Origin: a virus
DNA length: 38,962 bases
Direction: 5' to 3' (one strand)
IMG/VR virus record: IMGVR_UViG_3300048838_000316
Location: 1-38,962 of that record
Shown piece by piece: positions 2,038 through 25,153 of this stretch. Numbering within the stretch: the first letter of the stretch is position 1; every line of letters starts with the position of its first letter. A program made the position numbers and the translations under genes. The notes under the pieces are model-generated. The model was given only the letters and a program-made list of their open reading frames with translations, was not told the origin of the DNA and searched no databases.

Positions 2038-4265
2038 TGGGCGTACGACTGGAAACGACATATTACACAGAAAAAGGCAATCCGCTACTGGTGCGCTTGT
2101 GGGATTCGTCGTTTTCAGGTTCAACGCTGCCCTTTTCTTGCGAACGCATAGAGGTACAATGGCGAGGCGACGAAGCCCGCGAACGGTTCTCCCCCATCAT
2201 TGGAAGCGAATGCAGCCTTTCGCTAATTGTTTCAAATTCCGACCTGGAAACGTTTGTTACGGACTTAGTAGGAGCTGAAGAAGGGCGGTTCACCGTAACG
2301 GTAGCGATGTTTGCCGGCCTGTCTGCCCCGTTTACATGGTCGGGGTATATCACTACTGATAACGTAAGAATAGAAGATACAACCCTAGAAGTAGGCTACC
2401 GGGTTGAAATTCGAGCCGTTGACGGACTGGGGCGGCTTAAAAGCGTGGATTATAATAACGACGGCACACAATACGCCGGAAAGGAAACGTTTGTTCAGCA
2501 CGTCCTAAAGGCCCTAAACAAGCTGCCATTTATCACGTCGCTTTTTGGCCCGTCCGATACGCTGCTGAACGTTGTGGCAAACTGGCATGAAAACAGCTAC
2601 ACCTACGCAGCGACCATCAACCCGATGAACCGCGCCCGCGTATCACACGGCGCGTTTTACTACCGGGACACGAAGGGCAATAACGTCTATTCAAGCGCAT
2701 ACGAGGTATTAGAAGAAATTTGCACGGCATGGGGCGCACGGCTGGTATTTTCTGGTAATGCGTTCTGGTTGATGCAGGTGGGCGAAGGTGACAACCTGGC
2801 AAGCGTGAACGTATTCCGATACACGAAAGGCGGAACAGAAAGCGTAGCAACGGCTCAGGACTTAACTATGTTTCACTTTCCGAACGCGGCGGGAAACAAG
2901 CTACTCCGGTTTTCAGGCGGAGCTTTCGAGTTCTTTGTCCCGCTGAAAAGCGTTCAAGTTGATTATAGGCATATTCAAAGCCGCAACTTGTTGGCTGGCT
3001 ACACCTGGAGCGACATCAACAATACAGAGGTGACGGTAGAAGACATCGACGATAGCGACGGCGAAGGACGGCTATCTTATACCGGAACCCTGACAATTAA
3101 CACCTCGTGGATTAACGTCACCGGCCCGGCATTCCAACCGCACTATGTTGTTCTTGCGTTTAAGGTGCAGGTTGGTAGCTTTTTTCTGAATGGCGATGTA
3201 ATTGCAACGCCCACCGGCCCGGTGGCGGATAATATGGAATGGAATAACGACAGCGCCTCCCGGATGTACGTCGTTACGCCTGTTTTTCAATTCGACGGGC
3301 AAACGATTGCTTTCCCCATCAATTTCATTACACCACCACTTGAACAAAGCGGAGATCTTACTTTTTCGTTCGACAAGTACAAGGCGTACTACGGCGCTGA
3401 TGAAATCGGGTTTGTTGTTGGTGATCCGTACCTGATTTTAGGCTACCAACTGACCAATAACTACCTGGAATTGCTTGGAGATGGGACATTTGAGAATCAA
3501 GCCGACATCTACCGATACAAATCAACAAATGACGCAACCGCATCCAAGCGCGTTGAACTCGTAACAAGCATAGGCGACGGCCCGAACCTGGCAAGCCCCG
3601 GACACATCGAAGTAAAAGATGATACAGATGAATGGGTAATTTCCGACGCGTGGCGCGTTGGGAACTTAGGAGATTACAAGGCATTTTCGCAGTTATTAGC
3701 GAACGAAACCATACGCGGGCAACTTTTGCCAGTGAAAAAATTGTCGGGCATGCCGTTTCAAAACTTGGACAGCCCTAGCAACCCGTTACGCCCGCACCTA
3801 GCGATAGATTACGACAGTGCAAAGTGGCTATTCCTCGCAGGGCGGTACAACGTGCAAACCGAAATTTGGCAGGGCGATTGGTTCAAGGTGCAAAGCGGTA
3901 CAGGCTACACGGAGGAAACCATGCAGCTAATTCCAAAAGATGCAAAGGACGGTGCGCCAACGTCGGGAGGCACAGGAGGCACAGCGCCAACGGGCGGGAC
4001 AAGTACGACAGGGGGCAGCACAGGCAGCGCGGGCAACACGGTACGGGTATTCAGGCAAGAGTTTTTAAACAATAGCGACGGCGAATTACTGATCACTGAA
4101 AACGGCGGCGCGTTGCCATTTGTTGAAATTCAGATTCAGGTGTTTCAGAACGGGCAAAAGCTCCTACCTGTTCAATACGACATTGTAAGTAGCACGATAA
4201 CCATAGACGCAGACACGCACTTTGTAGGGGCAAATTATGAAGTTTACTTTACGATAATCCAATAG
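2037..4265 (+). CDS. Tail-tip / distal tail structural protein (742 aa)
   Basis: This is a large virion protein encoded directly after the tape measure, the usual place of distal-tail or baseplate-hub proteins in siphoviruses. I do not recognise a named domain in its first 620 residues; the region is rich in beta-forming and aromatic residues, as tail-tip proteins are. A low-complexity Gly/Thr/Ser linker near residues 640-662 leads to a separate C-terminal beta-rich domain of about 70 residues. That domain resembles the C-terminal extension of the head-tail joining protein at 35798-36406. The start overlaps the tape-measure stop, and the next gene begins 2 bases after this stop, so the three are probably translated together. 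The placement is strong; the exact role is inferred. Confidence 0.65.
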   Translation: MGVRLETTYYTEKGNPLLVRLWDSSFSGSTLPFSCERIEVQWRGDEARERFSPIIGSECSLSLIVSNSDLETFVTDLVGAEEGRFTVTVAMFAGLSAPFTWSGYITTDNVRIEDTTLEVGYRVEIRAVDGLGRLKSVDYNNDGTQYAGKETFVQHVLKALNKLPFITSLFGPSDTLLNVVANWHENSYTYAATINPMNRARVSHGAFYYRDTKGNNVYSSAYEVLEEICTAWGARLVFSGNAFWLMQVGEGDNLASVNVFRYTKGGTESVATAQDLTMFHFPNAAGNKLLRFSGGAFEFFVPLKSVQVDYRHIQSRNLLAGYTWSDINNTEVTVEDIDDSDGEGRLSYTGTLTINTSWINVTGPAFQPHYVVLAFKVQVGSFFLNGDVIATPTGPVADNMEWNNDSASRMYVVTPVFQFDGQTIAFPINFITPPLEQSGDLTFSFDKYKAYYGADEIGFVVGDPYLILGYQLTNNYLELLGDGTFENQADIYRYKSTNDATASKRVELVTSIGDGPNLASPGHIEVKDDTDEWVISDAWRVGNLGDYKAFSQLLANETIRGQLLPVKKLSGMPFQNLDSPSNPLRPHLAIDYDSAKWLFLAGRYNVQTEIWQGDWFKVQSGTGYTEETMQLIPKDAKDGAPTSGGTGGTAPTGGTSTTGGSTGSAGNTVRVFRQEFLNNSDGELLITENGGALPFVEIQIQVFQNGQKLLPVQYDIVSSTITIDADTHFVGANYEVYFTIIQ

Positions 4266-13531: not shown

Positions 13532-13882
13532 TCAATATTTTTCAATTAGATAATAGACCAATCCTCCCCACCCCGCCCACGCTCCGCACAGCACCCCGAC
13601 CGCGAACAACAAGCGCCAACCTAAGAAGCCCAGGCGGAACCACTCTGTACGCCCTGAGCCGATGCGTAGGGGAGCTCTACCGCTGCGCAGGGTGCGCTTA
13701 AGCCATAGTTCAACGTGTTCATAGAACAGCACGGGCGCAAAGAAGATGCCGATTTGTATTCCCGGCGTTGTGTGCTGAATCTCCCTCCATCGCTTCGCCC
13801 TGCGTCCGAGGCGGGCAACGCCGACCTTGAAACGCGGGCGAAGCAATGAAAGGTTGAGTTTGATGTAGATTATACCGATCAT
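13532..13882 (-). CDS. Basic membrane protein of unknown function (116 aa)
   Basis: The protein is strongly basic in its N-terminal two thirds (many Arg and Lys) and ends with a hydrophobic segment, WRLLFAVGVLCGAWAGWGG, followed by a short tail. A second weaker hydrophobic stretch lies near residues 43-55. It starts 4 bases after the stop of the 436-aa membrane protein and probably works with it at the membrane. I recognise no family. Confidence 0.6.
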   Translation of the reverse strand: MIGIIYIKLNLSLLRPRFKVGVARLGRRAKRWREIQHTTPGIQIGIFFAPVLFYEHVELWLKRTLRSGRAPLRIGSGRTEWFRLGFLGWRLLFAVGVLCGAWAGWGGLVYYLIEKY

Positions 13883-13886
13883 GGCG

Positions 13887-15197
13887 TTACGGTTTTTCGT
13901 TGCGCAACATCCCCTCTAAGCGGTTAATTTCGCGTTGCGCTTTTTCAATGCCAGCCTGCACCGTTGCGCCGTTACCTATGCCGTTCAACATCTTGTGTCG
14001 GTATGCGCGTAACTTGGAGCGTTGCGCACGGATTGCGCCGCGTATAACTTCCGGTTCTAAGCTAGTTGAAACGTGGGCTTGGCGCGTTGCGTTGCGCCTG
14101 AATTTCGGCCTGCGTTGCGCCCGTTGCGTTGCGCTTTGTTGCGCCGTTGCGCTTGGAATATTCGGCGCAACGCTTTGCACTTGTACGGGCGTTGCGCTTG
14201 CGTTCATAGGCCCCGCCACAACCCCTAACCGCGCCTTGCTGCGTGCCCAATCATTCACGCCGCCAAACGCGAAAACAAGCGCATCCATACCTAAATCAAA
14301 ACTTTCTCGCAGCACGTCGATCAGGTCTTTGCTATCAGGTACAGCCCGAAGACTTCCTAAGTTAAGAAGCAGCAGGATAGACAGCGCACCTGAAAACAGC
14401 GTTAAGTAGAAAATAATCGCCTTGCTATTCCCTAACCTGTTTTGCCACGTTTCAACCGCTGCACTTTGCGCGGCAATGATCTGCGCTGTTTCAACGTCCT
14501 TGCCAGTGAGGAGCGCCGTCTTTGCTTCCTGAGCGCGTTTTAGCGTGTTAGTGGCCTCTTGTACCGCCTGCGCTGCGGTCGCCTCGTGACGGGCAACGGC
14601 AGCCCGTTGGCGCTTGAAAGCCGGGGCAGTGCGCACCCAGGAATTGCCGGAAAGATATAAACGGGCAAATTCGCCGCCTTGCGCTTTAACGCCGTCCGTG
14701 TTAGAGGTCTTTGCTTTGGCTTGCGCTGCTTTGAGGGCGGATTCAGCTCTGGTAATTTCCGCGTTGGCTTCACGGAGTAGGGCAGCGCGGTTTGCATCGC
14801 CTTGAATTTTCGTTGCCTGCATATCCTTATACGTTTCGCTCTTGTCTTCTACGCTTGCATCCGCAAGGACGGGCACAGCGCGGAGGGAAAAGATCATAGA
14901 CCCGGCATAAGCAGCGAAGCCGATCAGCAGGGCAAAGCCCCACGCGGAGCGGGTAGGCATGGCCTCCTGCTTAAAGATGTGTTTGACCGCGCTTTCCAAG
15001 CTAGAGAACGCCACGCCGTCGAATACAAGCAGCGTGACGACGCTAAGCAGGATGGTAAGTAATGCGGAAACAATGCCAGCACCGAAGTAGCCTTCGGCGA
15101 AGTTCCTCCAAGTGATCCAGGCAGTCAAGAACGTGCCCGCTGCCAGGGCGTACCGCGCAAGGCGGTATGTGGAAATGATGCTATCTGTGTTTTTCAT
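13887..15197 (-). CDS. Multi-pass membrane protein with a long coiled coil (436 aa)
   Basis: Four hydrophobic segments are visible: about residues 12-32, 38-60, 84-106 and 259-281. Between the third and fourth lies an Ala/Glu/Lys/Gln-rich helical region (about 118-250) that should form a coiled coil. The C-terminal 120 residues are low in complexity, rich in A, Q, R, S and T, and end in a short helical segment. This overall layout occurs in some phage and bacterial membrane proteins of unknown function. No enzymatic motif is present. Because it is a large membrane protein in an early-type operon, superinfection exclusion or anchoring of phage complexes is plausible. The start follows the CAAAAACAAAACACAG leader. 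Confidence 0.7.
   Translation of the reverse strand: MKNTDSIISTYRLARYALAAGTFLTAWITWRNFAEGYFGAGIVSALLTILLSVVTLLVFDGVAFSSLESAVKHIFKQEAMPTRSAWGFALLIGFAAYAGSMIFSLRAVPVLADASVEDKSETYKDMQATKIQGDANRAALLREANAEITRAESALKAAQAKAKTSNTDGVKAQGGEFARLYLSGNSWVRTAPAFKRQRAAVARHEATAAQAVQEATNTLKRAQEAKTALLTGKDVETAQIIAAQSAAVETWQNRLGNSKAIIFYLTLFSGALSILLLLNLGSLRAVPDSKDLIDVLRESFDLGMDALVFAFGGVNDWARSKARLGVVAGPMNASATPVQVQSVAPNIPSATAQQSATQRAQRRPKFRRNATRQAHVSTSLEPEVIRGAIRAQRSKLRAYRHKMLNGIGNGATVQAGIEKAQREINRLEGMLRNEKP
13899..14197. repeat. GTTGCGC-type short repeat array within a coding region
   Basis: Twelve plus-strand copies of GTTGCG(C/T) begin at 13899, 13934, 13963, 14021, 14086, 14091, 14114, 14123, 14128, 14138, 14146 and 14191. 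One inverted copy, GCGCAAC, lies at 14165, and the palindrome GTTGCGCAAC at 13899-13908. The copies fall in the 3' part of the 436-aa gene and are used in all three coding phases (for example as SAT, AQ and RN). A repeat at the protein level does not explain that. Confidence 0.7.
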
Positions 15198-15222
15198 ATC
15201 TGTGTTTTGTTTTTGACGTGAA

Positions 15223-15672
15223 TTATTCTTTCTTTTTCCCTATCGCCATGCTTTGCCGGTAATTAATCCCCTGTAAAGTTTCCTCTTTCTGAATTACCCC
15301 GTACCATCCCCGGCGCTCGAATTCAGCAGCAAGTACTGCGTCGGACGCTTCGCGCAGGTACTCGAACATGGTGATAGGCTTAGACTCAGCAGGAATAGGG
15401 AGTTCGGGTGGGGTGGGCTTGCTTTGTTTTGGCTTATCCGCACAAGCTTTTTTCAACATCTGCCAATGCCTTGTAGTCATGGCTTCCGGGCCTGTGTAGG
15501 TGTACGCGCCTGCGTTTCCCTGGTTGTGAACGACAACCCATCCAAGATTGCGGTAAGATTTCATTAACCGCACCCCACAACCCGCTATTCGTGTAGCGTT
15601 GCTAAGATTGCGCGTTTTGCCCTCTGACACAAGGGCATGAAATTTCTTCCAAGAGCTATTAATTTCTTTCAT
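15223..15672 (-). CDS. Putative DNA-binding (winged-helix-like) protein (149 aa)
   Basis: The N-terminal half (about residues 22-80) has a helix-turn-helix-like pattern, LSNATRIAGCGVRLMKSYRNL, followed by a hairpin-like WVVVHNQGNAGAYTYTG segment. Together these suggest a winged helix. A Pro/Lys-rich hinge leads to a C-terminal helical part containing LAAEFERRGWYGV, a type of motif seen in short phage proteins. If correct, this is the best regulator candidate in the minus operon. The assignment rests on pattern only. Its start follows the leader ACAAAAACACAAACACAG. Confidence 0.45.
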   Translation of the reverse strand: MKEINSSWKKFHALVSEGKTRNLSNATRIAGCGVRLMKSYRNLGWVVVHNQGNAGAYTYTGPEAMTTRHWQMLKKACADKPKQSKPTPPELPIPAESKPITMFEYLREASDAVLAAEFERRGWYGVIQKEETLQGINYRQSMAIGKKKE

Positions 15673-15704
15673 CTGTGTTTGTGTTTTTGTATTTTTGAAT
15701 TATC

Positions 15705-15759
15705 AAAACCCGCCTCGCCTCTCTTGGCTTTGCCATGATGCGCATGTTTGGCGGGTTTT
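15705..15759 (-). terminator. Terminator-like inverted repeat inside the minus operon
   Basis: AAAACCCGCC (15705-15714) pairs with GGCGGGTTTT (15750-15759). The intervening 35 bases contain a small nested TGGC/GCCA hairpin. On the minus strand the structure follows the stop of the 15766-16077 gene and is followed by a weak T-rich run. It could reduce transcription into the downstream genes. Confidence 0.4.
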
Positions 15760-15765
15760 CTGTTT

Positions 15766-16077
15766 TCAATTCCACTTATCCAAGTTCGTAATTTCAAGCC
15801 CGGCGGCCTCCAATGCTTTGCGCCGGGATTCAAGCTTTGTTCGTAGTTCGCTGACGCGGGCAATAGTTGCCTTTTCTTCCGCGTCTAATTCCAGTGTGAT
15901 CTCAGTACCATTCGACCCGGTTTTTTCTGAGCCTTCGGTACTTGTAATTGTCGGCAGGGTGGGCGGGGGCTTTGCCGGTCTTACGGGGCCGGCGGCGAGC
16001 TTTCCCGCGTCCCGGATTGCGAGGTAAAGCACCCAGCAGCCGAAAGCGGTTCCTGCGATGGCTTCCGGGTAGATCAT
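15766..16077 (-). CDS. Small membrane-anchored protein (103 aa)
   Basis: One N-terminal hydrophobic segment (about residues 4-22), a Pro/Thr/Gly-rich linker (32-56) and a C-terminal charged helix (60-98, with EEKATIARVSELRTKLESRRK) suggest a membrane anchor carrying a cytoplasmic or periplasmic coiled coil. Spanin-like topology was considered, but the gene is far from the lysis module. The start overlaps the stop of the preceding gene as ATGA. Function unknown. Confidence 0.6.
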   Translation of the reverse strand: MIYPEAIAGTAFGCWVLYLAIRDAGKLAAGPVRPAKPPPTLPTITSTEGSEKTGSNGTEITLELDAEEKATIARVSELRTKLESRRKALEAAGLEITNLDKWN

Positions 16078-16325
16078 CGCAGCGGGGGATTGTCTAGTAT
16101 TGCGGCGCTATCCTTAAGCCAGGATTGCGGCGGGCCGGGTTCGGTGACGGTTTGCGCTTTCTCGTCTTGTAGGTTTTGCCAGGCTGCGGAAATGATGTTA
16201 CGCAGGCACTCCGGGTTAGCTACATAGCGCTGTTCAAGTTCCGCCATTGCGGCCCGGAGTTCGAGAAACTTGGCTTTAGTTTCTGCAGAAACTTCAATAG
16301 CCATTACGATTTTTTTCTTTGACAT
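16074..16325 (-). CDS. Small helical protein, first gene of the minus operon (83 aa)
   Basis: A soluble protein with an N-terminal helical segment containing VSAETKAKFLELRAAMAELE, and no known motif. It is the promoter-proximal gene of the minus-strand operon (promoter at 16354-16387). The start is preceded by the leader CACAAAAACAAAAACAG, which recurs in front of two other genes of this operon. The short distance between promoter and start gives a leader of roughly 20-25 bases. Function unknown. Confidence 0.65.
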   Translation of the reverse strand: MSKKKIVMAIEVSAETKAKFLELRAAMAELEQRYVANPECLRNIISAAWQNLQDEKAQTVTEPGPPQSWLKDSAAILDNPPLR

Positions 16326-16353
16326 CTGTTTTTGTTTTTGTGATTGAATAAGA

Positions 16354-16387
16354 CAAAGGTAAAAATATTTTTAAAATAAAGTGCAAA
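16354..16387 (-). promoter_or_regulatory. Promoter of the minus-strand operon
   Basis: On the minus strand the -7 box TACCTTTG (16354-16361) fits TAnnTTTG, and a TTTG lies at 16384-16387. The 22-base spacer is a little longer than usual. It is divergent from the plus promoter at 16414-16421, and the two share an A+T-rich control region. Confidence 0.68.
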
Positions 16388-16413
16388 AATATTTTAAATT
16401 TCAAAATCATTCT

Positions 16414-16421
16414 TATCTTTG
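16414..16421 (+). promoter_or_regulatory. Promoter (-7 box) of the plus-strand early operon
   Basis: The -7 box TATCTTTG is exact, but only T-rich sequence (TTTT at 16392-16395) stands at the -33 position. Two copies of the palindrome AAAATATTTT (16362-16371 and 16386-16395) lie between the two divergent -7 boxes and could be operators. The first downstream gene begins at 16461. Confidence 0.72.
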
Positions 16422-16460
16422 TATTGCGTTCAATGGTGAGCGCGTAAAAACCATACACAG

Positions 16461-16679
16461 ATGAAAAAAATACAAATTCCAAACTTACATATTGACACTC
16501 CAGTAACTTTACCAGGCTTTCAAATCATTCGTTATGTTGACGACTTTAACACGGTCGTTATCATAGAAGACGAATACACCCCGGACGAAGCAGTTTTGTT
16601 CTTCACGCATCCGGCAAAGTCCGTGACGATCTGGAAAGTGGCGCAAGACGAAAACGGCGTTCTTTACATTTGGCTTTAA
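16461..16679 (+). CDS. Small early protein, unknown (72 aa)
   Basis: A soluble 72-residue protein that is beta-rich by composition (many V, I, T and Y) and ends with a short hydrophobic VLYIWL. It is the first gene after the divergent promoter, about 33 bases from the predicted transcript start. Its leader AAAACCATACACAG directly precedes the ATG. No family is recognised; such first early genes often encode host-takeover proteins, but that is only a general expectation. Confidence 0.6.
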   Translation: MKKIQIPNLHIDTPVTLPGFQIIRYVDDFNTVVIIEDEYTPDEAVLFFTHPAKSVTIWKVAQDENGVLYIWL

Positions 16680-16713
16680 TGGCTTTAATTTTTCAACTCA
16701 AAACCATACAACC

Positions 16714-16986
16714 ATGATCCAAGTTTATTTTTTCGGCCCTGACCTGGTGGCCTTTATTGAAGAAGAAACACAGACCAGCGTCGTCCTGACAATTGATGAG
16801 GCGATGACCCACGTCCGGCTTCTTTCTACCGGTGAGGGCATTGCAACATTTCGCGGGGGGGCATTTGGCGAGGTGGAACGCTACATTTATTCCTGGTCAA
16901 CGCCCAACGTTGTACAGGCTATCATTGGCGACCACAGACAGCAGATCGTAAACAATTACACAATCAATAAAAACAGAAACGCATGA
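16714..16986 (+). CDS. Small early protein, unknown (90 aa)
   Basis: A mostly beta-type soluble protein without motif, signal peptide or membrane segment. It resembles its neighbour at 16461 in size and in having a hydrophobic N-terminus. The leader CAAAACCATACAACC before the ATG matches that of the neighbour, so the pair probably share translation control. The stop overlaps the next start by 4 bases. Confidence 0.6.
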   Translation: MIQVYFFGPDLVAFIEEETQTSVVLTIDEAMTHVRLLSTGEGIATFRGGAFGEVERYIYSWSTPNVVQAIIGDHRQQIVNNYTINKNRNA

Positions 16987-17438
16987 TTCAGGCGATTGTA
17001 AAATTCGCAGCGGGCAACCCCCGCGACACCAAGCGCGGCCCGCGCATTAACGCTGTTGTTACTTTGCCCGACGGCTCCGAACAAACTATTTGGGACGCCC
17101 CCGGCGGTATTGTTTCCTCCTGGAAAAAAGGGCAGGCCGTAACCCTGGAGCAAAACGGGCAATATTACAACCCGGTAAAAGGCGACGCAACGCAGGGCAC
17201 AACGCAGCCACAGGCGCAAAGCGCCCCGGCGCTTACCCGCGTTGACCTCGACAACGAAGAAGCCCGCGAACACCTGTACAAGCGCGCAGCGGCGTTCACC
17301 GATGTGTACCGCTCAATATATGAGCGCCTGCGCACAGGTGACACAGACGACCCGCTGGATATTGCGCAGCCGGTAAACCCGGAAGACCTTAGCAGCGCAG
17401 CGGCGACGATCTTTATTCAACTGATGCGCAATGCGTGA
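16983..17438 (+). CDS. Putative OB-fold single-strand DNA-binding-like protein (151 aa)
   Basis: The first 65 residues have the pattern of a small OB-fold: a beta strand, GNPRDTKRGPRINAVVTL, then DGSEQTIWDAPGG, then KKGQAVTLEQNG. Similar segments occur in phage proteins suspected of binding single-stranded nucleic acid. A Gln/Pro/Ala-rich linker (66-80) precedes a helical, acidic C-terminus. The position in the early operon, upstream of the replication genes, agrees with such a role. The family assignment is tentative. Confidence 0.45.
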   Translation: MIQAIVKFAAGNPRDTKRGPRINAVVTLPDGSEQTIWDAPGGIVSSWKKGQAVTLEQNGQYYNPVKGDATQGTTQPQAQSAPALTRVDLDNEEAREHLYKRAAAFTDVYRSIYERLRTGDTDDPLDIAQPVNPEDLSSAAATIFIQLMRNA

Positions 17439-17697
17439 CGAAGAGCAATACCGCGCCGAAATATGGGAAGGCGAAGTCTTCAGGGGCTTCGCCGCTACCT
17501 TCAACCAAATACTAAGGATTGAGGACTTATTACGCACTTGCACGCTACCGGAAACTGAGGTAAGATACTGGACAGCATACGCCGAACACTTACCAGAAGA
17601 CCAAGCAACCGGGCTTATCCGACGCTTGGAAGCCAACCAAGCGGAAAGCAGCGACCCCCGACAGCAATTTATTGACCGCTTAAAAATTATGCCATGA
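17431..17697 (+). CDS. Small early protein, unknown (88 aa)
   Basis: A soluble, mainly helical and acidic protein with no recognised motif. It overlaps the previous gene by 8 bases and the next by 4, so it is tightly coupled within the early operon. The C-terminal region ESSDPRQQFIDRLKIMP looks flexible. Function unknown. Confidence 0.6.
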   Translation: MRDEEQYRAEIWEGEVFRGFAATFNQILRIEDLLRTCTLPETEVRYWTAYAEHLPEDQATGLIRRLEANQAESSDPRQQFIDRLKIMP

Positions 17698-18113
17698 AGC
17701 CCGCAAAAGACACGCTATCACAGGCCCGCGCCTTTTTGGCCAACGCCGAAACCCTGCTTTCAAGCGGCCCCGGTGCGGATGACCTCGACGGCATGGCAGC
17801 ATGGATAAGCGAGATGAACGCAGCTTTTGCCCGTCTGGCGCAGCTTGCCGGGGAGTGTGAGGCCGTTTACGCGCGCTTGGTGCAGCACGAACTTAGCACA
17901 ATTGAAGACGAAGAGCTTAAGAAAATTAAGCACTCCTCAACACTTACCGAACTATGGGTTAGGGGCAAATACCCAGAAGCCTACGCCACAGTGGCGAAGA
18001 TGGAGCGCATGGCCCGCGTGTTTACTGAGGTATTGCAGAATAGCCGTACGCTGCTCGCATCGTACCGGCAGGAAAGGGAATTTGATTTACGGACGCAAAT
18101 AAGACAACAATGA
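17694..18113 (+). CDS. Helical early protein, unknown (139 aa)
   Basis: Almost the whole protein should be alpha-helical, with long runs free of Pro and Gly. The second half has a distinct signature, TELWVRGKYPEAYATVAKM, followed by NSRTLLASYRQER. A coiled-coil or helical-bundle fold is likely. It is coupled by 4-base overlaps on both sides. I know no function for this pattern; it may bind nucleic acid or another early protein. Confidence 0.6.
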   Translation: MKPAKDTLSQARAFLANAETLLSSGPGADDLDGMAAWISEMNAAFARLAQLAGECEAVYARLVQHELSTIEDEELKKIKHSSTLTELWVRGKYPEAYATVAKMERMARVFTEVLQNSRTLLASYRQEREFDLRTQIRQQ

Positions 18114-18412
18114 AAAAAGTAAAAGCACTGAGCCGGCCCGCAAAGCCCACAAAGACCCCGCGCCACGTCTTAAAGCAGACGAAAGCCGACAGGCTAAACG
18201 TCAAGTTCAAGCCCCCTGCAGCGGTTGACCGGTCACTAAGCGCGCCCCGTGCAAATTACCAAAAGCCCGGAACCGCTGACATCAAAGTACAAGCGACGGC
18301 CCGGCAGGATGACGACATTGGGCGCTTGATGCAGGAATGCAGCGCCGCAGGGTGGCAGGATTACATTATTATTCATGGGCATTATACTGTCTTTGCCCGC
18401 AAAACCGCGTAA
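18110..18412 (+). CDS. Basic early protein, unknown (100 aa)
   Basis: The N-terminal half is strongly basic and disordered (many K, R, P and T), as in nucleic-acid-binding tails. The C-terminal 35 residues (RLMQECSAAGWQDYIIIHGH and a short strand) look like a small alpha/beta unit. It overlaps the previous gene by ATGA and ends 1 base before the small membrane ORF at 18414. Function unknown. Confidence 0.58.
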   Translation: MKKVKALSRPAKPTKTPRHVLKQTKADRLNVKFKPPAAVDRSLSAPRANYQKPGTADIKVQATARQDDDIGRLMQECSAAGWQDYIIIHGHYTVFARKTA

Positions 18413-18413
18413 C

Positions 18414-18494
18414 ATGGACATCTTTGGAATCTTAATTGTCGTACTTTTCGCCTGGCTGCTATCCGATGCGGGCGAACAAAAGCAAAGCAGATGA
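18414..18494 (+). CDS. Very short membrane peptide (26 aa)
   Basis: The sequence MDIFGILIVVLFAWLLSDAG is a single hydrophobic helix, followed by six polar residues. The gene is too short to be found by length filters. It fits perfectly in the operon: the start comes 1 base after the preceding stop and its stop overlaps the next start as ATGA. The helix could be an inner-membrane anchor or a small regulatory peptide. Confidence 0.55.
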   Translation: MDIFGILIVVLFAWLLSDAGEQKQSR

Positions 18495-18730
18495 AAACCT
18501 ACACCTTCGCAACCTCCGGCGGCATTGTGACCGCCCAGGGCTTCACCCGTGACGACGCGCGCAACCGCCTTCGCGCCGCGTTCCCGCACCTGAGCATCGT
18601 GCCCGACGACGACCGCAGCGAAGCGCAGCGGCTTATTGACGAAGAAATCCGGGAGGACAAAGCCCGCGCAAGGACTGAGGGCGCAGAGTTCGATTACTAC
18701 GAACCCGACCCGAACGAACTACCTTTTTAA
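18491..18730 (+). CDS. Small acidic early protein, unknown (79 aa)
   Basis: A soluble protein with an N-terminal strand-helix unit (TFATSGGIVTAQGFTRDDAR, then RLRAAFPHL) and a strongly acidic second half ending in DYYEPDPNELPF. The N-terminal pattern, a short beta strand followed by a helix with R-x-R-L, recalls small phage proteins of the early region. The acidic tail could mimic DNA. Function unknown. Confidence 0.58.
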   Translation: MKTYTFATSGGIVTAQGFTRDDARNRLRAAFPHLSIVPDDDRSEAQRLIDEEIREDKARARTEGAEFDYYEPDPNELPF

Positions 18731-18747
18731 CCGCTAAAACTACAATT

Positions 18748-18927
18748 GTGAAAAAAACTATTGAACGCATCGACTCCGCCCGGTGGCTACTGGCCGCCCT
18801 GGCTTTCCTGCTTACCATGCTCCTGCTTAACGCCTGCGCTTCGCCGCTGCCGACCCGGCGGGATGCGGTAGAGGTAGCGCCGCTGCCGGTGTGGGTAATT
18901 CGTAACCTTGAAAAAACAACGCAATGA
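18748..18927 (+). CDS. Putative small lipoprotein with a GTG start (59 aa)
   Basis: A GTG at 18748 opens a 59-residue protein: KKTIERIDSARW, a hydrophobic helix LLAALAFLLTMLLL, then NACASPLP. This fits a lipoprotein signal with the lipobox LNAC. The mature peptide is only about 30 residues and Pro-rich. The stop overlaps the start of the next gene as ATGA, which supports the frame. Small outer-membrane lipoproteins such as Rz1 have this size, but this gene is far from the lysis module. Surface exclusion is another possibility. Confidence 0.55.
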   Translation: MKKTIERIDSARWLLAALAFLLTMLLLNACASPLPTRRDAVEVAPLPVWVIRNLEKTTQ

Positions 18928-19184
18928 AACACATTGAGGATGAATTGCTACCCAAAAAAAATAAGCTACAATCAAGCGGCAAAGGCAAAGACAAAACGTT
19001 TTTTGTTGAAATCCTAGACGCGGAATTAGATATTTTGCACTGCGATTTTCAATTTGACGGATGCGTTACTATTAATACTGAAAATTATAGCTACTTGGCG
19101 CTTACAGTAGAAAACCTTTACGCCTTAATCGCTTTGATTAATGAATCCGAAATAAAGTATGAAAAAATGTTTGAAAAGAAATAA
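18924..19184 (+). CDS. Small early protein, unknown (86 aa)
   Basis: A soluble protein with a charged N-terminus and a core containing FVEILDAELDILHCDFQFDG. A helical C-terminus contains LTVENLYALIALINESE. It is the last gene before the promoter and the structured leader. The -33 box of that promoter lies within its last codons. Function unknown. Confidence 0.6.
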   Translation: MKHIEDELLPKKNKLQSSGKGKDKTFFVEILDAELDILHCDFQFDGCVTINTENYSYLALTVENLYALIALINESEIKYEKMFEKK

Positions 19185-19201
19185 ACCTTTTCTTATCTTT
19201 G
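19170..19201 (+). promoter_or_regulatory. Promoter for the leader RNA and replication genes
   Basis: TTTG (19170-19173), a 20-base spacer and TATCTTTG (19194-19201) match the Bacteroidota consensus exactly. The predicted start is near 19207-19210. The -33 box overlaps the end of the preceding gene. Confidence 0.88.
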
Positions 19202-19207
19202 TTTCAT

Positions 19208-19309
19208 CAAAAGAGCTATGCGCAGGTCTCCTACCCAGCGCATAGTTACTACCGGAATAATTTTCCGATGGGCTGAGAGTGTAGGAGCTTTCAGCCCTTT
19301 TTTTATTTT
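19208..19309 (+). ncRNA. Structured leader RNA with complementary hairpin loops
   Basis: About 100 bases from the predicted transcript start contain three hairpins. P1 has a 10-bp stem (19214-19223 with 19238-19247) and a 14-base loop. P2 is CGGAA (19253-19257) with TTCCG (19263-19267). P3 has a 10-bp stem (19270-19279 with 19288-19297), an 8-base loop and a T-run. The loop of P1 holds CTCCTAC (19228-19234), and nearly the whole loop of P3 is its complement GTAGGAG (19281-19287). The loops can therefore pair over 7 bases as a kissing complex or as an antiterminator. This resembles an attenuator or a small regulatory RNA; I recognise no known riboswitch class. The end is set by the terminator. 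Confidence 0.7.
19270..19309 (+). terminator. Rho-independent terminator ahead of the replication genes
   Basis: The P3 hairpin of the leader is followed by TTTTTTTATTTT. It stands between a strong promoter and the ATG at 19324, so replication gene expression should depend on escape from this terminator or on read-through. Its loop is complementary to the loop of P1. Confidence 0.85.
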
Positions 19310-19323
19310 AAAAAGTAGTGACT

Positions 19324-20400
19324 ATGAAAGAGTTATTGTTAGCGCTGAATCAGAGGCCCATCTCTTATTATCCGATTTATGCAAAAATCCTAAACAGCGT
19401 TCATGCTGGTATTCTATTGTCGCAATTGATGTACTGGTGGAGCGCCGTGCATGGAAGGGAGTTTTACAAGACTGATGCTGAGATAGCAGACGAAACATCC
19501 CTGAGTAGCGCAGAGTTAAGGACAGCCAAAAAGATTTTAAAAGAATCCGGCTTTGTGACAATCAAAGCAAAGGGCGTACCTGCAAAAACACACTACATTA
19601 TAAACCACGTTTTTTTACAAACTAGTTTAGCGGAATTCGCAAAACTGGATTCGTTGAAACAACAAATCTGCTTTAGCGATTTTAGCGAAACTATTACAGA
19701 GAATACTACAAAGACCACACAGAGAGAAGAACCCGTTTTCGATGAAAACGCCTCTCCTTCTTTTTTTCTTGAAAAACCAAAGCGCAAAAAAGAAGACTAT
19801 TTAGAACTGATTGCGCAGGTAGTGGATTATTTGAACGTGGCAACAGGCCGTAAATTTGGCTACACTACAAAGACGACAGAAAAAAGCATAATAGCCCGCG
19901 CAAAGGAGGGGTATGCGTTTGAAGATTTCGCCGTCGTGATCGACTGCAAGACTGCCGAATGGCTGCACGATTCCGAATTTTCTAAGTATTTGAACCCGGA
20001 AACACTTTTTGGGAACAAGATGGAAAAGTATTTGGTTACCGCCCGCGCTGAAAACGCCGCCCGTGCCAACACCGACACCGCCCTAAAAGATACCGAACTC
20101 GACACAGCAACAGCCGAAAAGTACGCTGCATACATCAACCACGCACAGGAGAAGTACGCCCAACTTTGGAATAGCAGCGTCCGGGTATTTTCGCACAGTG
20201 AATTTATTGACTACCTGGAAAACCGTTCGCTGCCTGCGATTCAATACGGCCTGACCACACAAGAGAAGAAGCGCCTACTTTTGGATGTGCATGACCGATT
20301 GAACGCATCGGCTGATTTGAGAAAAAAATATTCCAAAACGATTGACGCATTCCACGCTGCTGCCCGGCAGGTCTTGCGCCAAGAAACGATCAAGCTATGA
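19324..20400 (+). CDS. Replisome organiser / replication initiation protein (358 aa)
   Basis: The N-terminal 100 residues form a winged-helix type domain with a typical phage-initiator opening (ISYYPIYAKILNSVHAGILL, then YKTDAEIADETSLS, a helix-turn-helix). An acidic, Ser/Thr-rich linker (about 110-150) leads to a domain matching the conserved phage C-terminal replication domain (Phg_2220_C type): VVDYLNVATGRKFGYTTKTT with an LNPETLFGNKMEKYL end. The last 110 residues are helical. It should bind the origin and recruit the helicase encoded next (4-base overlap). I chose the ATG at 19324 over the GTG at 19318. The gene lies behind the leader terminator. Confidence 0.75.
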   Translation: MKELLLALNQRPISYYPIYAKILNSVHAGILLSQLMYWWSAVHGREFYKTDAEIADETSLSSAELRTAKKILKESGFVTIKAKGVPAKTHYIINHVFLQTSLAEFAKLDSLKQQICFSDFSETITENTTKTTQREEPVFDENASPSFFLEKPKRKKEDYLELIAQVVDYLNVATGRKFGYTTKTTEKSIIARAKEGYAFEDFAVVIDCKTAEWLHDSEFSKYLNPETLFGNKMEKYLVTARAENAARANTDTALKDTELDTATAEKYAAYINHAQEKYAQLWNSSVRVFSHSEFIDYLENRSLPAIQYGLTTQEKKRLLLDVHDRLNASADLRKKYSKTIDAFHAAARQVLRQETIKL

Positions 20401-22262
20401 ACTTGCTCAATATAGCCCTGGAATATCACGCCGCCGAGCTTCGCGTTGTGCCTATCCGAGAAGATAAGCGCCCGGCTGTGGCCTCCTGGAAGCAATACCA
20501 GACCGTGCAAACGGAAAACGATGTGCGGGAAATGTTTACCCAGGATCAATACGGCATTGCGATTCTTACCGGCATTGACGGCCTGGAATGCGTCGATGTG
20601 GATAGCAAGTACGACCTTACCGGCACACTAATTGAAGACCTACAAACCGCGAACGACTGGATAAACGACAAAGACGGGCAGTTTCAACGCCTGACGATTC
20701 AGCGCACGCGTTCCGGGGGTTGGCACATCCTGTACAAGTGTCCGCATCCAGAGGGGAATAAGAAACTAGCGGAGCGCCCCGCAAGCGGTGACGAAGACCC
20801 GAACACCACGCCCGTACTTCTGGAAACGCGCGGTATTGGCGGCTACATAGTTGCAGCCCCTACGCCGGGATACTCCCTGTATTTTGGATCGTTCAAAGCT
20901 ATACCCGCTATTAAGCAAAGCACCCGCGATACACTTATCCGGGTATGCCGGTCTTTCGATCAATCCGTTAAGCCTGACCCGCAAACCGCATACCGTGAAA
21001 AACCCAAAGAAGAAATCAACACGCAGCGGGATGGTTTAACGCCCTGGCAGGATTATAACGAACGTACCGATGCAGTGGATGTATTGCAGGCGCATGGATG
21101 GACGGTAGTGTATGAAGACGGGGAGCGCATCTATATGAAGCGCCCCGGCAATACTGATGCAAAGACCAGCGGGAACTACCATAAAACCAAAGGCGTTTTT
21201 GTATCACATACCACGTCAACGCCACTGCCTACGGGCGTAGGGTTAAACGCTTTTTCAGTTTATGCGCACCTAAAGCACGGCGGTGATTTTAAAGCCGCTG
21301 CCCGTGCACTGAGTTCTGAGGGCTATGGAGCAGCCCCGCAAGCCCGGCAAGAGGTGCAAGCGATTCAGCAGCGAACGCCCGAACAAGTCCAAGCGCAGGA
21401 CGATGCACTTATTGCCTTTGTAAAATCTACGCGCTTTGACCTTTCGGCTCCGATTACTGAGGAAGCCGCAACGCTGACCGTTTCCCCGCCGGATAGCGGG
21501 CAGGTGTACAAGGTAGGCGGTCGTTCCATGATTGGCGCTATTGTCGGAGAACAGAAAAGCGGCAAGAGCTTTGTATGTCAAAACATAGTTGCCAGCGCGC
21601 TAATGGGCGGTTATCAATCTGCGCACTTTTCGCAGAAGATGGAAAAGGACGACCGGATATTGTATTTTGACACAGAGCAAAGCGAATATTTTTACAAGCG
21701 CTCCCAGGCCCGAATCTATGAGATTGCCGGAATATCAGAGAATGACCCGCGTTATGAGGCGTACCACTTGCGCCGTTTGCCGGTAGATCAACGCTTGAAA
21801 GCAGTGGAGTACTTTATCCGCAACGGCAAAGCGCCGAGCTTTATAATCATTGACGGCATTGTTGATCTTTGCCGCAACTTCAACGACGAGCGCGAAAGCG
21901 CCGATTTGATGAATTTACTTTTGCAGTGGACAGACGAAACGCAGGCGCTTCTAATCACGGTGCTTCACTTAACAAAGGGCAACGGCTTTATGCGGGGGCA
22001 CTTAGGAACGGCATTGCAAAACAAGTGCGATTTTAGTATAGAAATAGCGCTTGATAAAGATTGGCCCGGCGCATTCAGTGTAAAAAGCAGGGATAGCCGT
22101 TTTCCTCCGTTTCCTAAGTTTTCATTTATCCGTGATCCAAAAACGGGACTTACTACGTCACAAAGCAGCTCGCAGTTTCCAAGCACCGCCACCCCTGAGT
22201 TACTCCCCTGGCACGCGGTGGCCAACGAAAGGCAGCCGGAGGGGGAGGATTTGCCGTTTTAA
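20397..22262 (+). CDS. PrimPol-helicase fusion replication protein (621 aa)
   Basis: The N-terminal domain (1-190) is a bifunctional primase-polymerase: the metal-binding DVD at residues 67-69 (GLECVDVDSKYD), the SGGWH motif at 106-110, and ETRGIGGYIVAAP at about 143-155. After a linker region (200-365) comes a RepA/RecA-like ATPase. It has Walker A GEQKSGKSF near residue 385 and Walker B FIIIDGIVDLC near 482-492, plus a later TVLHLTKGNG segment. It should prime and unwind the phage DNA. No separate DNA polymerase is encoded, so the host polymerase or the PrimPol domain must do the synthesis. The start overlaps the replisome organiser by ATGA. Confidence 0.88.
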   Translation: MNLLNIALEYHAAELRVVPIREDKRPAVASWKQYQTVQTENDVREMFTQDQYGIAILTGIDGLECVDVDSKYDLTGTLIEDLQTANDWINDKDGQFQRLTIQRTRSGGWHILYKCPHPEGNKKLAERPASGDEDPNTTPVLLETRGIGGYIVAAPTPGYSLYFGSFKAIPAIKQSTRDTLIRVCRSFDQSVKPDPQTAYREKPKEEINTQRDGLTPWQDYNERTDAVDVLQAHGWTVVYEDGERIYMKRPGNTDAKTSGNYHKTKGVFVSHTTSTPLPTGVGLNAFSVYAHLKHGGDFKAAARALSSEGYGAAPQARQEVQAIQQRTPEQVQAQDDALIAFVKSTRFDLSAPITEEAATLTVSPPDSGQVYKVGGRSMIGAIVGEQKSGKSFVCQNIVASALMGGYQSAHFSQKMEKDDRILYFDTEQSEYFYKRSQARIYEIAGISENDPRYEAYHLRRLPVDQRLKAVEYFIRNGKAPSFIIIDGIVDLCRNFNDERESADLMNLLLQWTDETQALLITVLHLTKGNGFMRGHLGTALQNKCDFSIEIALDKDWPGAFSVKSRDSRFPPFPKFSFIRDPKTGLTTSQSSSQFPSTATPELLPWHAVANERQPEGEDLPF

Positions 22263-22303
22263 AAAATTATCGATTTAGCACAAAATGTTTAAAACGAAAT
22301 AGT

Positions 22304-22311
22304 TATCTTCG
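22304..22311 (+). promoter_or_regulatory. Possible weak promoter before the zinc-finger gene
   Basis: TATCTTCG differs by one base from the TATCTTTG used elsewhere in this genome. No clear TTTG lies 19-21 bases upstream. It is the only candidate in the 69-base gap after the helicase gene, and the leader ATCAAAAACCACTACC follows. Confidence 0.4.
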
Positions 22312-22331
22312 TAACATCAAAAACCACTACC

Positions 22332-22583
22332 ATGCACAGCCGACTAATACCCACCCGCCAACAAATAGCCTGGGATCAAAACGACGGCGTTTTGACCTGT
22401 GCCAACTGCGGTACATCTCGCGCAAAAGCCGGAGCGCCGCGCAACAACTGCCCCGCCTGCGGATATTGGATTTGCCGGGCCTGTGCTGCTAAACTTAGGG
22501 CAGCCCGGCAAGATTGCGCTTGTTGTCGGAGGGCAAACGCGAATGAAAAAATTTACAAAGGATCATGGCACGGAGTAAGGTAG
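22332..22583 (+). CDS. RING-like / treble-clef zinc-binding protein (83 aa)
   Basis: Nine cysteines are arranged as C23-x2-C26, C40-x2-C43, C48-x2-C51 and C62-x-C64-C65. This is close to a cross-brace RING or double treble-clef, enough for two zinc ions, but it lacks the central histidine typical of RING. The tail is basic. A role in protein binding or nucleic-acid binding is likely; ubiquitin ligase activity should not be assumed. The gene overlaps the VRR-NUC gene by 19 bases, so the two products are probably made together. Confidence 0.7.
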   Translation: MHSRLIPTRQQIAWDQNDGVLTCANCGTSRAKAGAPRNNCPACGYWICRACAAKLRAARQDCACCRRANANEKIYKGSWHGVR

Positions 22584-22954
22584 GCAGCGAACATAGCATA
22601 CAGGCCGCCGTTGTCCGTTGGTTCCGATTCCAGTACCCCGGCAAATCGCGGCTACTTTTCAGCATTCCAAACGGGGCTATGCTTTACGGCGATAGATTCC
22701 AACGCGCAAGGCAATGGAAGAAATTGGAAGAAGAGGGGGCTGTAGCGGGCGCGCCGGATTTGTTTCTTAGCATACCATCCGGGCAACTACATGGCCTATA
22801 TATCGAAATGAAAACGCCGGAAGGCAGCCAAAGCGATAAACAGGCCGCATTCGAAGCCGATGCGATACAGGCAGGGTATGGCTACGCTATGCCCCGGAGC
22901 TTGGAGGAAGGAATAAATGTGATAACAAGCTACCTAAAAGCGGGTAGCTATTAA
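22565..22954 (+). CDS. VRR-NUC domain nuclease (129 aa)
   Basis: The whole protein is one VRR-NUC domain of the PD-(D/E)XK superfamily. It has E9 in the first helix, G-A-P-D65 before a strand, E81-x-K83 in YIEMKTPEG, and Q93 in SDKQAAF. Such phage proteins are structure-specific nucleases and may resolve Holliday junctions or other branched replication products before packaging. Its length is normal for stand-alone VRR-NUC proteins. It closes the replication module. Confidence 0.88.
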   Translation: MARSKVGSEHSIQAAVVRWFRFQYPGKSRLLFSIPNGAMLYGDRFQRARQWKKLEEEGAVAGAPDLFLSIPSGQLHGLYIEMKTPEGSQSDKQAAFEADAIQAGYGYAMPRSLEEGINVITSYLKAGSY

Positions 22955-22959
22955 AATAA

Positions 22960-23054
22960 TTCCCGGCTTCCCAGGTTTGGAAGCTGGCGCGGTTGCTTTA
23001 CCGTAGTGGTTATGGTGTGCTGATGGGCCGTGCGCGGTGGACTGGGGCCGGGAA
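22960..23054. other. Structured intergenic element (possible non-coding RNA)
   Basis: This lies in the 194-base gap between the nuclease gene and the glycosyltransferase gene. TTCCCGGC (22960-22967) pairs perfectly with GCCGGGAA (23047-23054) and encloses further helices. One is CTTCC/GGAAG with a 7-base loop (22967-22983); the other is GCGC-type pairing of 22987-22992 with 23028-23035. A closing stem with internal branches suggests a folded RNA on either strand. It is not a canonical tRNA (no TTC in the 7-base loop, no clear D-arm) and no U-run follows. Confidence 0.45.
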
Positions 23055-23101
23055 AAACATAGGTGTCTTTTCATTCTTGTATGGTTTTAGGTTAGTAATT
23101 C

Positions 23102-23128
23102 GCCGCCGGAGCAGAAAAGCCCGGCGGC
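23102..23128 (+). other. Hairpin in the leader of the glycosyltransferase cluster
   Basis: GCCGCCGG (23102-23109) pairs perfectly with CCGGCGGC (23121-23128) around an 11-base loop, 20 bases before the ATG at 23149. No T-run follows on the plus strand, so it is not a normal terminator. It may affect mRNA stability or translation of the cluster. Confidence 0.5.
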
Positions 23129-23148
23129 AACTTTAAAAAAAATCAGAT

Positions 23149-23925
23149 ATGGCACTAATCGCAATGGCAGTGTACGATACAGAAGAGAACAAGCGTTTTG
23201 ACCTGACCCGCCAAACGCTTGACAGCTTGGTTAACCGCGTCAACCTGGATAGGCACCAGATAATCATATCTGACAATCGTAGCTGTGGCGATACCATAGC
23301 GCTTTTGAAAGAGGTTGAGCGCTTTGGCCTTGCCACCGTGATTTACAACGATTCCAACCTAGGAACCGCCGCTGCCATAAATAAAGCCTGGAAGCAGCGC
23401 AAGCCCGGCGAAGTCTGCATAAAAATGGATAACGACGTGGTAATTCATTACGACGGGTGGGCCGACGAAATTGAGGAAGCGTTTAGGCGTGATCCGAACA
23501 TCGGCATTTGCGGGCTTAAGCGGAAAGATTGCATAGAAAGCCCGGAGCGCACAGACTGGTATAAGTCTGAATTATACATGCTTCCCCATAAGCCCGGCGA
23601 AAAGTGGATAGTTGGTGAAATCGTCAATCACGTTATGGGAACGTGTCAAGGGTACAGCCCCACGCTACTGGATAAGATTGGGTATTTGTACCAACCGCGC
23701 CTGTACGGCTTTGACGACGCACTAGCAGCCGCCCGTTGCAAAGTAGCAGGATTCCTGAGCGTGTTTCTCCCGCACATCGAAATTGACCACATCGACCCCG
23801 GCGACACCGCATACCAGGGATGGAAGGAAAAAGTTGCAGGTGAGGACATGGCAGAATATAACCGCATTGTGAACGGCTACTTTGACGGATCAATTCCTAT
23901 TTACTATAATCCTTTTGAGGCATGA
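23149..23925 (+). CDS. GT-A (GT2-like) glycosyltransferase (258 aa)
   Basis: A family 2-type fold: the N-terminal nucleotide-binding part (VYDTEENKRFDLTRQTLDSL, then IIISDNRS) and the metal-binding D94-N-D96 in IKMDNDVVIHYDGW. Acceptor-side elements follow, such as VMGTCQGYSP and YQPRLYGFDDALAAAR. It should transfer a sugar from a nucleotide sugar to a glycan, protein or nucleotide acceptor. No membrane segments are present, so it acts in the cytoplasm. It opens a co-transcribed cluster; its stop overlaps the next start by 4 bases. Confidence 0.85.
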   Translation: MALIAMAVYDTEENKRFDLTRQTLDSLVNRVNLDRHQIIISDNRSCGDTIALLKEVERFGLATVIYNDSNLGTAAAINKAWKQRKPGEVCIKMDNDVVIHYDGWADEIEEAFRRDPNIGICGLKRKDCIESPERTDWYKSELYMLPHKPGEKWIVGEIVNHVMGTCQGYSPTLLDKIGYLYQPRLYGFDDALAAARCKVAGFLSVFLPHIEIDHIDPGDTAYQGWKEKVAGEDMAEYNRIVNGYFDGSIPIYYNPFEA

Positions 23926-24575
23926 AAATAAAGGTATTGACATTTAGCAACATGCCTGACCATCCAGGATTGCGCGCGCTTGAACTGTCGCTAATTAAGC
24001 ACGGTTGGGATTACAGCATCATAACCGGAAGCTGGCAAGGATTCGGCACAAAGCCGCAAAGCGTGTACAACTCCCTGAAAGACCTGGAAGAACACGGCTA
24101 CACACATGTTTTATTCACCGACGCGCATGATACCGTTTTCTTGCAAAGCCCAGACGCGCTTAAGCGTCAAGTCTTTGAACCCGGCTTTGCGTACATCAGC
24201 GCCGAAAAAGCTTGTTGGCCTGACGCTGGCCGCGCCACAGAATATGGTTATCATACCCCGCCGCCTTCGCCCTGGTGTTACGTCAACAGCGGGCAATATC
24301 TTATGCCAATCCCTATGTTTCGGGAAATATTCGAGTTCATGCCTTGCGAAGATCGGGAGGACGATCAAAGATGGTTAACGACCGCGTATTTGTCCCACCG
24401 CTGGAAAATGATACTAGATATCAACTGCAAAATCTTCCAATCCATCGCATTCCCGGCAATGGGGGATTTTATGATTAAGGACGGAAAATTGCTCAACACC
24501 ATAACCCGCACGCAGCCGATCGCAGCGCATGGGAATGGGAAAACACCATTAGAATGGCTGTACAACTTGAAGTAG
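23922..24575 (+). CDS. PLOD-like GT-A glycosyltransferase (217 aa)
   Basis: The motif HVLFTDAHDTVF (D67 and D70 as the metal-binding DxxD), the acceptor element YVNSGQYL and the DDQRWLTTAYL segment match the glycosyltransferase domain of procollagen-lysyl glucosyltransferases and related bacterial and viral enzymes. HGNG near the C-terminus is the usual last motif. The domain is complete, about 215 residues. It overlaps the first glycosyltransferase gene by 4 bases and the next gene by 22, so the products probably work on the same substrate, which is unknown. Confidence 0.78.
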   Translation: MKIKVLTFSNMPDHPGLRALELSLIKHGWDYSIITGSWQGFGTKPQSVYNSLKDLEEHGYTHVLFTDAHDTVFLQSPDALKRQVFEPGFAYISAEKACWPDAGRATEYGYHTPPPSPWCYVNSGQYLMPIPMFREIFEFMPCEDREDDQRWLTTAYLSHRWKMILDINCKIFQSIAFPAMGDFMIKDGKLLNTITRTQPIAAHGNGKTPLEWLYNLK

Positions 24576-25153
24576 ATGGAATAGGTTACGACTTGTTAGA
24601 ACGTGCTATTGAACGCGTTAAGGGAATTCCGGGAATGTTCTTGGAGATTGGGACCAGACGTGGAGGCTCTTTGCAATTGACTGCTGAAAAGACATTAGCG
24701 CTTGATTCGTATCGCGTTATGGTAAGCGTTGACCCGTACGGAAATATCCCATACAATGACGGGAAAGAAGTCACACGGTACGACTACACAAATGTTATGC
24801 GTAATGAAACATTGAGCAACCTATTCCAATATGTGCAAAACAAGCCCATGCACTTAATAGCGCTCACACTTACCGACGACGACTTTTTTAATTTATTTGA
24901 CAACGGCATTCCCGTATATCAAGGGAACCGAATGGTGTACAATGATTACGCCTTTGCCTTTCTTGACGGCCCGCACGACACGAAAAGCATTTTGCGCCAA
25001 GTGGAATTTCTTGCACCCCGGATGCCAAAAGGCGGAAATATCGTAATAGACAATATTGATTTTTTTGATCTTGACTACATTTTGCGCATGGCAAGAGCAA
25101 CATATACAGAAGTGGAACGCAACATTCAAAAAATAGCCCTATGCAGACTTTAA
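24554..25153 (+). CDS. Class I SAM-dependent methyltransferase-like protein (199 aa)
   Basis: Motif I is FLEIGTRRGG (29-38), followed by a second strand ending in VSVDPYG. A motif-IV-like strand reads AFAFLDGPHDTKS, and NIVIDNIDFFD forms a later strand. The pattern fits the Methyltransf_24 type used on sugars and small molecules. The protein starts within the previous gene and ends inside the next (overlaps of 22 and 13 bases). Target preference cannot be read from the sequence. Confidence 0.72.
   Translation: MAVQLEVDGIGYDLLERAIERVKGIPGMFLEIGTRRGGSLQLTAEKTLALDSYRVMVSVDPYGNIPYNDGKEVTRYDYTNVMRNETLSNLFQYVQNKPMHLIALTLTDDDFFNLFDNGIPVYQGNRMVYNDYAFAFLDGPHDTKSILRQVEFLAPRMPKGGNIVIDNIDFFDLDYILRMARATYTEVERNIQKIALCRL

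Follow-up and report, generated by a model that had tools for sequence, protein, structure and literature searches.

What might be the role of an RNA leader that carries two mutually complementary hairpin loops and stands between a promoter and the replication genes of a phage? The question is raised by a 38,962-base IMG/VR virus record (the whole of which is called the window here), in which an original prediction had placed, exactly between a consensus promoter and the replication genes, a 10-bp hairpin with the loop CTCCTAC, a small 5-bp hairpin, and a 10-bp terminator hairpin whose 8-base loop is almost all GTAGGAG. The locus is organised as follows:

19170-19201, + strand: promoter, with a -33 box TTTG (19170-19173), a 20-nt spacer and a -7 box TATCTTTG (19194-19201)
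19214-19247, + strand: hairpin HP1, 10-bp stem (19214-19223/19238-19247) with inner GG/CC, from folds
19228-19234, + strand: kissing strand A, CTCCTAC, displayed by HP1, its complementarity to strand B kept in all ten leaders described below
19253-19267, + strand: HP2, a 5-bp spacer hairpin (arms 19253-19257/19263-19267)
19270-19304, + strand: HP3, intrinsic terminator, 10-bp stem (19270-19279/19288-19297) and T7 (19298-19304)
19280-19287, + strand: HP3 loop, 8 nt, TGTAGGAG
19281-19287, + strand: kissing strand B, GTAGGAG, in the HP3 terminator loop and complementary to CTCCTAC
19318-20400, + strand: replication initiator/replisome organiser, Phg_2220_C, with a GTG start at 19318 or an ATG at 19324
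20397-22262, + strand: Prim-Pol primase-polymerase with an AAA domain (PF09250, E 1.6e-14; PF13481)

Most of the predicted anatomy is thus found as described, including the promoter, HP2 and HP3, the near-complete occupation of the terminator loop by GTAGGAG, and the position in front of replication genes. The gene directly 3′ of the leader encodes a product matching PF09524 (E 1e-23) and phrog_428, replication initiation protein (E 9e-38). For HP1, the 10-bp stem stands, but CTCCTAC is not the whole loop: it is part of a 14-nt loop (AGGTCTCCTACCCA), reduced to 8 nt (TCTCCTAC) once the inner GG/CC pairs form, in which case the HP1 and HP3 loops are alike in shape, G[1 nt + 7 nt]C. HP3 has the GC-rich hairpin and the directly 3′ U tract of an intrinsic terminator (10 bp, T7), and it is the sole strong terminator within 16300-23200. 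The promoter is of the Bacteroidota sigma-ABfr type by its match to the consensus TTTG/TAnnTTTG (PMC7366714). A scan for promoters of the sigma-70 type gave no evident one on the minus strand at the leader, and the search for iterons or origin repeats nearby gave just two weak repeats of two copies each, both within the initiator gene. Elsewhere in the window, genes for a family 2 glycosyltransferase and a methyltransferase, perhaps with a role in DNA or capsid modification, separate the replication genes from the terminase (23149-25153), and a block of minus-strand ORFs, one of 436 aa, is divergent from the early genes (13532-16325); those tested had no Pfam match, and three had no PHROG match.

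Could the complementarity of the loops be a coincidence? It had been called unlikely by chance, and the numbers agree: the probability of a 7-nt match between a random 14-nt loop and a random 8-nt loop is 0.0008, and the window contains the leader pattern a single time, against 0 of 100 shuffles with any copy. The fold energy of the leader is -47.5, against -26.9 (sd 3.1) in shuffles (z -6.65).

A stronger answer comes from relatives. Nine further leaders of the same order were found in IMG/VR contigs (L029, L032, L079, L081, L168, L017, L021, L104 and the weaker L202), which together with the window make up the ten leaders discussed here. They were reached by four routes, which differ in whether they select for pairing. 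The first, which looked in viral contigs for the exact loop pair with T6 after it, does so; after folding, L029 and L032 were the only true leaders among its 26 matches. The second made no such selection, since it followed relatives of the YqaJ-like exonuclease encoded just upstream of the L029 and L032 leaders; it led to L079 (CTACCAC/GTGGTAG) and L081 (CTGCTAC/GTAGCAG), whose loops are different and still complementary. The third was a scan for the promoter and GTGTNNNAGC...T5 with the HP1 loop left free: among 45 stretches, a 7-nt match was present in the L029, L032, L079 and L081 contigs and in the new L168 (CTTCCAC/GTGGAAG) and L202 (CTACCAC/GTGGTAG), and all remaining stretches had loop matches of 5 nt or less. 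Because L079, L081, L168 and L202 were thus found through a neighbouring protein or a pattern with a free HP1 loop, the complementarity in these four was not selected for. The fourth route, a scanner requiring pairing, was run over all contig DNA collected, and gave L104, in which the loops are exchanged (GTAGGAG in HP1, CTCCTAC in the terminator), as well as L017 and L021, both GCATCAC/GTGATGC. Requiring the promoter as well left the leaders named here and some weak matches in the wrong place. In the first pairing scan the one match from shuffled DNA scored 39, whereas the leaders detected in that scan scored 54-58.

The kissing leaders are set off from the rest of the 27 distinct promoter-terminator-ATG leaders in the collected DNA; L193 and L174, which have promoter and terminator but no loop match, were excluded. 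Apart from L029 and L032, the first two pattern scans of viral contigs mostly matched coding sequence by chance, a scan of genome contigs for the exact loops gave three chance matches in Firmicutes without the fold, and what scored as a further copy on the contig of L104 (L219, 16.9 bits) proved to be a terminator on its own. In the records searchable whole there is one leader copy per record. No close relatives were found by initiator protein or by DNA. Nor did the cultured Bacteroidota phages examined for their Phg_2220_C, DUF6291 or Prim-Pol genes (FpV9, TCUEAP3, elemoC, 11b, tooticki, Harreka, phi13:2, RAP44, tant8-1, P2559S and phi38:1) show a kissing leader; in these the intergenic space is often absent. 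In two of them, Flavobacterium phage 11b and Cellulophaga phage phi13:2, leaders of another kind with a promoter and a terminator lie near DUF6291 (L159 ~2740-2870; L162 ~2870-2995); they contain long-range complementary segments (CGGGCAGG...CCTGCCCG; CTCTCACAA...TTGTGAGAG) resembling antiterminators and show no loop kissing.

All ten leaders have a perfect 7-bp loop-loop match, made from five loop sequences (CUCCUAC, CUGCUAC, CUACCAC, CUUCCAC and GCAUCAC in HP1) plus the exchange in L104. Along the helix, pair 1 is C-G or G-C, pair 2 U-A or C-G, pair 3 any of the four Watson-Crick types, pair 4 C-G, U-A or G-C, pair 5 U-A, C-G or G-C, pair 6 A-U, and pair 7 C-G, or G-C in L104 only. Watson-Crick pairs fill 70 of 70 loop-loop cells, against an average of 44 when the loops are re-dealt (P = 1e-5); re-dealing the six distinct variants gives P = 1/720. 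These permutations ignore kinship, yet the variants are distinct and the initiator proteins just ~25-32% identical. The predicted loop-loop energy computed across variants stays between -8.9 and -9.3 kcal/mol. In the six leaders that were aligned, 93.3% of cells pair (71.9 when shuffled), the covariation score is 0.680 (0.196 shuffled, at most 0.123 slid), both partners have changed in 9 of 11 HP1 pairs, and pairing in the kissing helix is complete (100%), two of its pairs being doubly changed. As is expected from its symmetry, the leader also matches the covariance model as its reverse complement (window 19210-19296, minus strand; 26.5 bits, E 2e-4).

The original prediction would have been abandoned had homologues kept the terminator and lost complementarity of the CTCCTAC/GTAGGAG type; the pairing is retained in 10 of 10. 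The compensatory changes that it proposed to look for are present in stems and loops of unrelated contigs, with seven Watson-Crick pairs between terminal loops, where a kissing-loop RNA calls for 5-7. Of its two structural proposals, a kissing complex or an antiterminator, the covariation bears out the former; no antiterminator competing with the terminator stem is conserved in the folds of eight leaders. Pairing between the HP1 loop and the terminator loop in the leader of the replication genes is therefore strongly supported by comparative sequence analysis. Since compensating mutations preserve the fit of the loops in widely divergent phages, this leader is, on comparative grounds, a real control element so far undescribed, and not a coincidence.

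Two simpler accounts of the loops can be weighed against the same variants. Mimicry of a Shine-Dalgarno sequence (AGGAG/CUCCU) was rejected, as GUGGUAG, GUGGAAG and GUGAUGC do not fit. The loops might also be two operator copies for a DNA-binding protein, complementary merely as inverted copies, and such an inverted repeat would likewise give paired changes and the independence of orientation observed in L104. However, in every leader the copies sit in hairpin loops, with HP1 stems that covary independently, and they lie on the promoter's transcript, one of them in a terminator loop, which makes this explanation extremely improbable.

What is conserved outside the pairing itself is limited. 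Both loops have one or two unpaired 5′ nucleotides followed by the seven pairing ones, with G-C closure in nearly all cases, and this symmetry of shape is the reason that they can be exchanged in L104. The conserved parts are the two loops and their closing G-C pairs only, with no conserved internal loop or junction. This bears on the suggestion of a ligand-binding riboswitch with a kissing expression platform: cobalamin riboswitches do use the loop of the expression hairpin in this way (PMC10907184), but the leader offers nothing resembling a ligand-binding core, and no Rfam family matches at its gathering score, the best sub-threshold score being that of the L20 leader (RF00558; 22.4 bits against a gathering score of 58.7). 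A riboswitch thus appears very unlikely, and with no conserved core outside the two loops a ligand sensor would be the least likely of the functions first offered, an attenuator, a ligand sensor or a trans-acting small RNA, all of which remain inferences from sequence.

The order promoter, leader, start codon is fixed. The -7 box is TATCTTTG in eight leaders and TATATTTG in L017 and L021, whose U tracts are short and interrupted; the HP2 position holds a hairpin of different sequence, predicted or drawable, and the terminator is at the same place in all relatives, with an ATG 0-19 nt past the T run in eight. The genes behind differ and are mostly replication genes: Phg_2220_C in five, DUF6291 and DUF7833 in L104, HTH_36 in L168 (a protein resembling replication initiators), Prim-Pol in L017 and L021 (in L021 after a small ORF), and HNH in L202, which has a weak 4-bp HP1 and adjoins no replication gene. 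In L029, L032, L079 and L081 the YqaJ exonuclease gene is followed by the leader and then the initiator, and in L017 and L021 by the gene for a small DUF3127-like protein (by resemblance), the leader and Prim-Pol; in many cases, therefore, the leader sits where recombination genes give way to replication genes. L029 and L079 share 93% identity in the exonuclease and 91% in the promoter, against 32% in the initiator and 62% in the next gene. As leader and initiator differ together beside a near-identical exonuclease and promoter, they seem to travel as a cassette.

In L029 (2813-2910, minus strand) the HP1 and HP3 stems share GGCCAC, so that folding predicts a long duplex between HP1 and HP3 (-51 kcal/mol) to be more stable than the two hairpins apart, which is not seen in other leaders. 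Between the exonuclease gene and the leader, and among early genes in an Elizabethkingia phage, sit tRNA-like or mini-helix sequences (L029 ~3061-3019, minus; L032 ~1830-1760, minus; L079 ~3790-4050, plus; L072 1585-1650, plus). They have acceptor-like ends and a T-arm GGTTCGANTCC, with no normal D or anticodon arm, and are not recognised by ARAGORN or Rfam.

How could such a leader work? We favour, with a probability of roughly 55%, the reading that it is a conserved phage transcription attenuator of replication genes. The promoter would start a transcript that folds into HP1, HP2 and the terminator right before the start codon; most transcripts would end there as a ~95-nt RNA, and read-through would express the replication genes. 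Because the folding of HP1 is finished by the time the terminator loop comes out of the polymerase, HP1 could catch that loop with the 3′ arm still in the enzyme, within the time window of termination, and so shift the balance between stop and read-through. We lean only slightly towards cis capture of the nascent loop slowing terminator closure and favouring read-through, with any occupant of the HP1 loop, such as an already released leader RNA with a free terminator loop, restoring the stop. Against attenuation, there is no conserved antiterminator, unlike in classical attenuators, and the kissing terminator could merely be the stable end of a small RNA; the interrupted U tracts of L017 and L021, and the weak HP1 of L202 and its place before an HNH gene, also count against it. 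The terminator might passively insulate the replication genes from upstream transcription, with kissing protecting the RNA from nucleases; HP1 does start a few nucleotides from the start site, so that the contact joins the 5′ region to the 3′ terminator. Yet a constitutive stop after the leader's own strong promoter would shut off the gene that follows at once, making a purely passive terminator improbable.

A second difficulty concerns kissing in cis. In L032 and L081 the linkers are very short with HP2 folded, and to judge by their length an extended coaxial complex within one molecule would be hard to build; the little room left keeps a trans model alive. The leader would then be mainly the gene for a ~95-nt RNA whose loops pair between molecules, as a dimer or as released RNA on a nascent leader, giving dosage feedback on replication in the manner of plasmid copy-number RNAs, with sense and counter-sense loop on one RNA. 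Such a role would suit the strong promoter and terminator in all leaders, loops alike in shape and even exchanged, as expected for partners on different molecules, the change of loop type together with the initiator gene, and the concentration of variation in the loop centre, as in incompatibility groups. On the other hand, kinetics favour local pairing inside a single RNA, no further target was identified, and lytic replication in general needs no copy control; we consider a trans-acting RNA possible, though unlikely. Somewhat more doubtful still is a self-contained control of the copy-number type, in which the terminated leader RNA would be its own counter-transcript, its terminator loop pairing in trans with nascent HP1, and the loop variants would be orthogonal groups moving with the initiator as cassettes. 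The leader suggests that commitment of a phage to DNA replication is under the control of RNA, and the natural orthogonal loop pairs (five plus one exchanged) make cis and trans kissing control of termination testable.

Several known systems share parts of this design. The L20 leader also combines long-range pairing with a terminator, but the phage leader has no ribosomal protein gene behind it. In ColE1, RNAI and RNAII have fully paired 7-nt loops, as here, lying on opposite-strand RNAs. The phi29 pRNA, which serves packaging, is a phage RNA that likewise has two mutually complementary loops; it is not known to have a terminator role. A possible further case for comparison is HMP_4078, a palindromic 109-bp Bacteroidetes candidate near phage D5 and integrase domains (PMC8040213). 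In the open-licence literature we found no account of a phage leader in which the terminator's own loop pairs with a hairpin further upstream.

The closest comparisons are with two regulators. In the pT181-type attenuator, the RepC leader and an antisense RNA control plasmid replication (PMC4878617); as in the phage, an intrinsic terminator lies before a replication initiator gene, and kissing hairpins, which the phage leader appears to share, decide between stop and go. There, however, the partner is an opposite-strand antisense RNA and an antiterminator helix excludes the terminator stem, whereas in the phage both loops are on one transcript, no such helix is seen, and the terminator loop itself is a partner. 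In cobalamin riboswitches (L5-L13) an aptamer loop pairs with the loop of the expression hairpin in the same RNA (PMC10907184), as the phage loops do; unlike these, the phage leader has no aptamer core, and its hairpin is an intrinsic terminator where that of env8 carries the ribosome site. Precedents exist for a kissing attenuator (pT181) and for a kissing expression platform (cobalamin riboswitches); to these the leaders add a covariation-supported class of structured RNA in uncultured phages, in which the loop of an intrinsic terminator would itself be the base-pairing partner.
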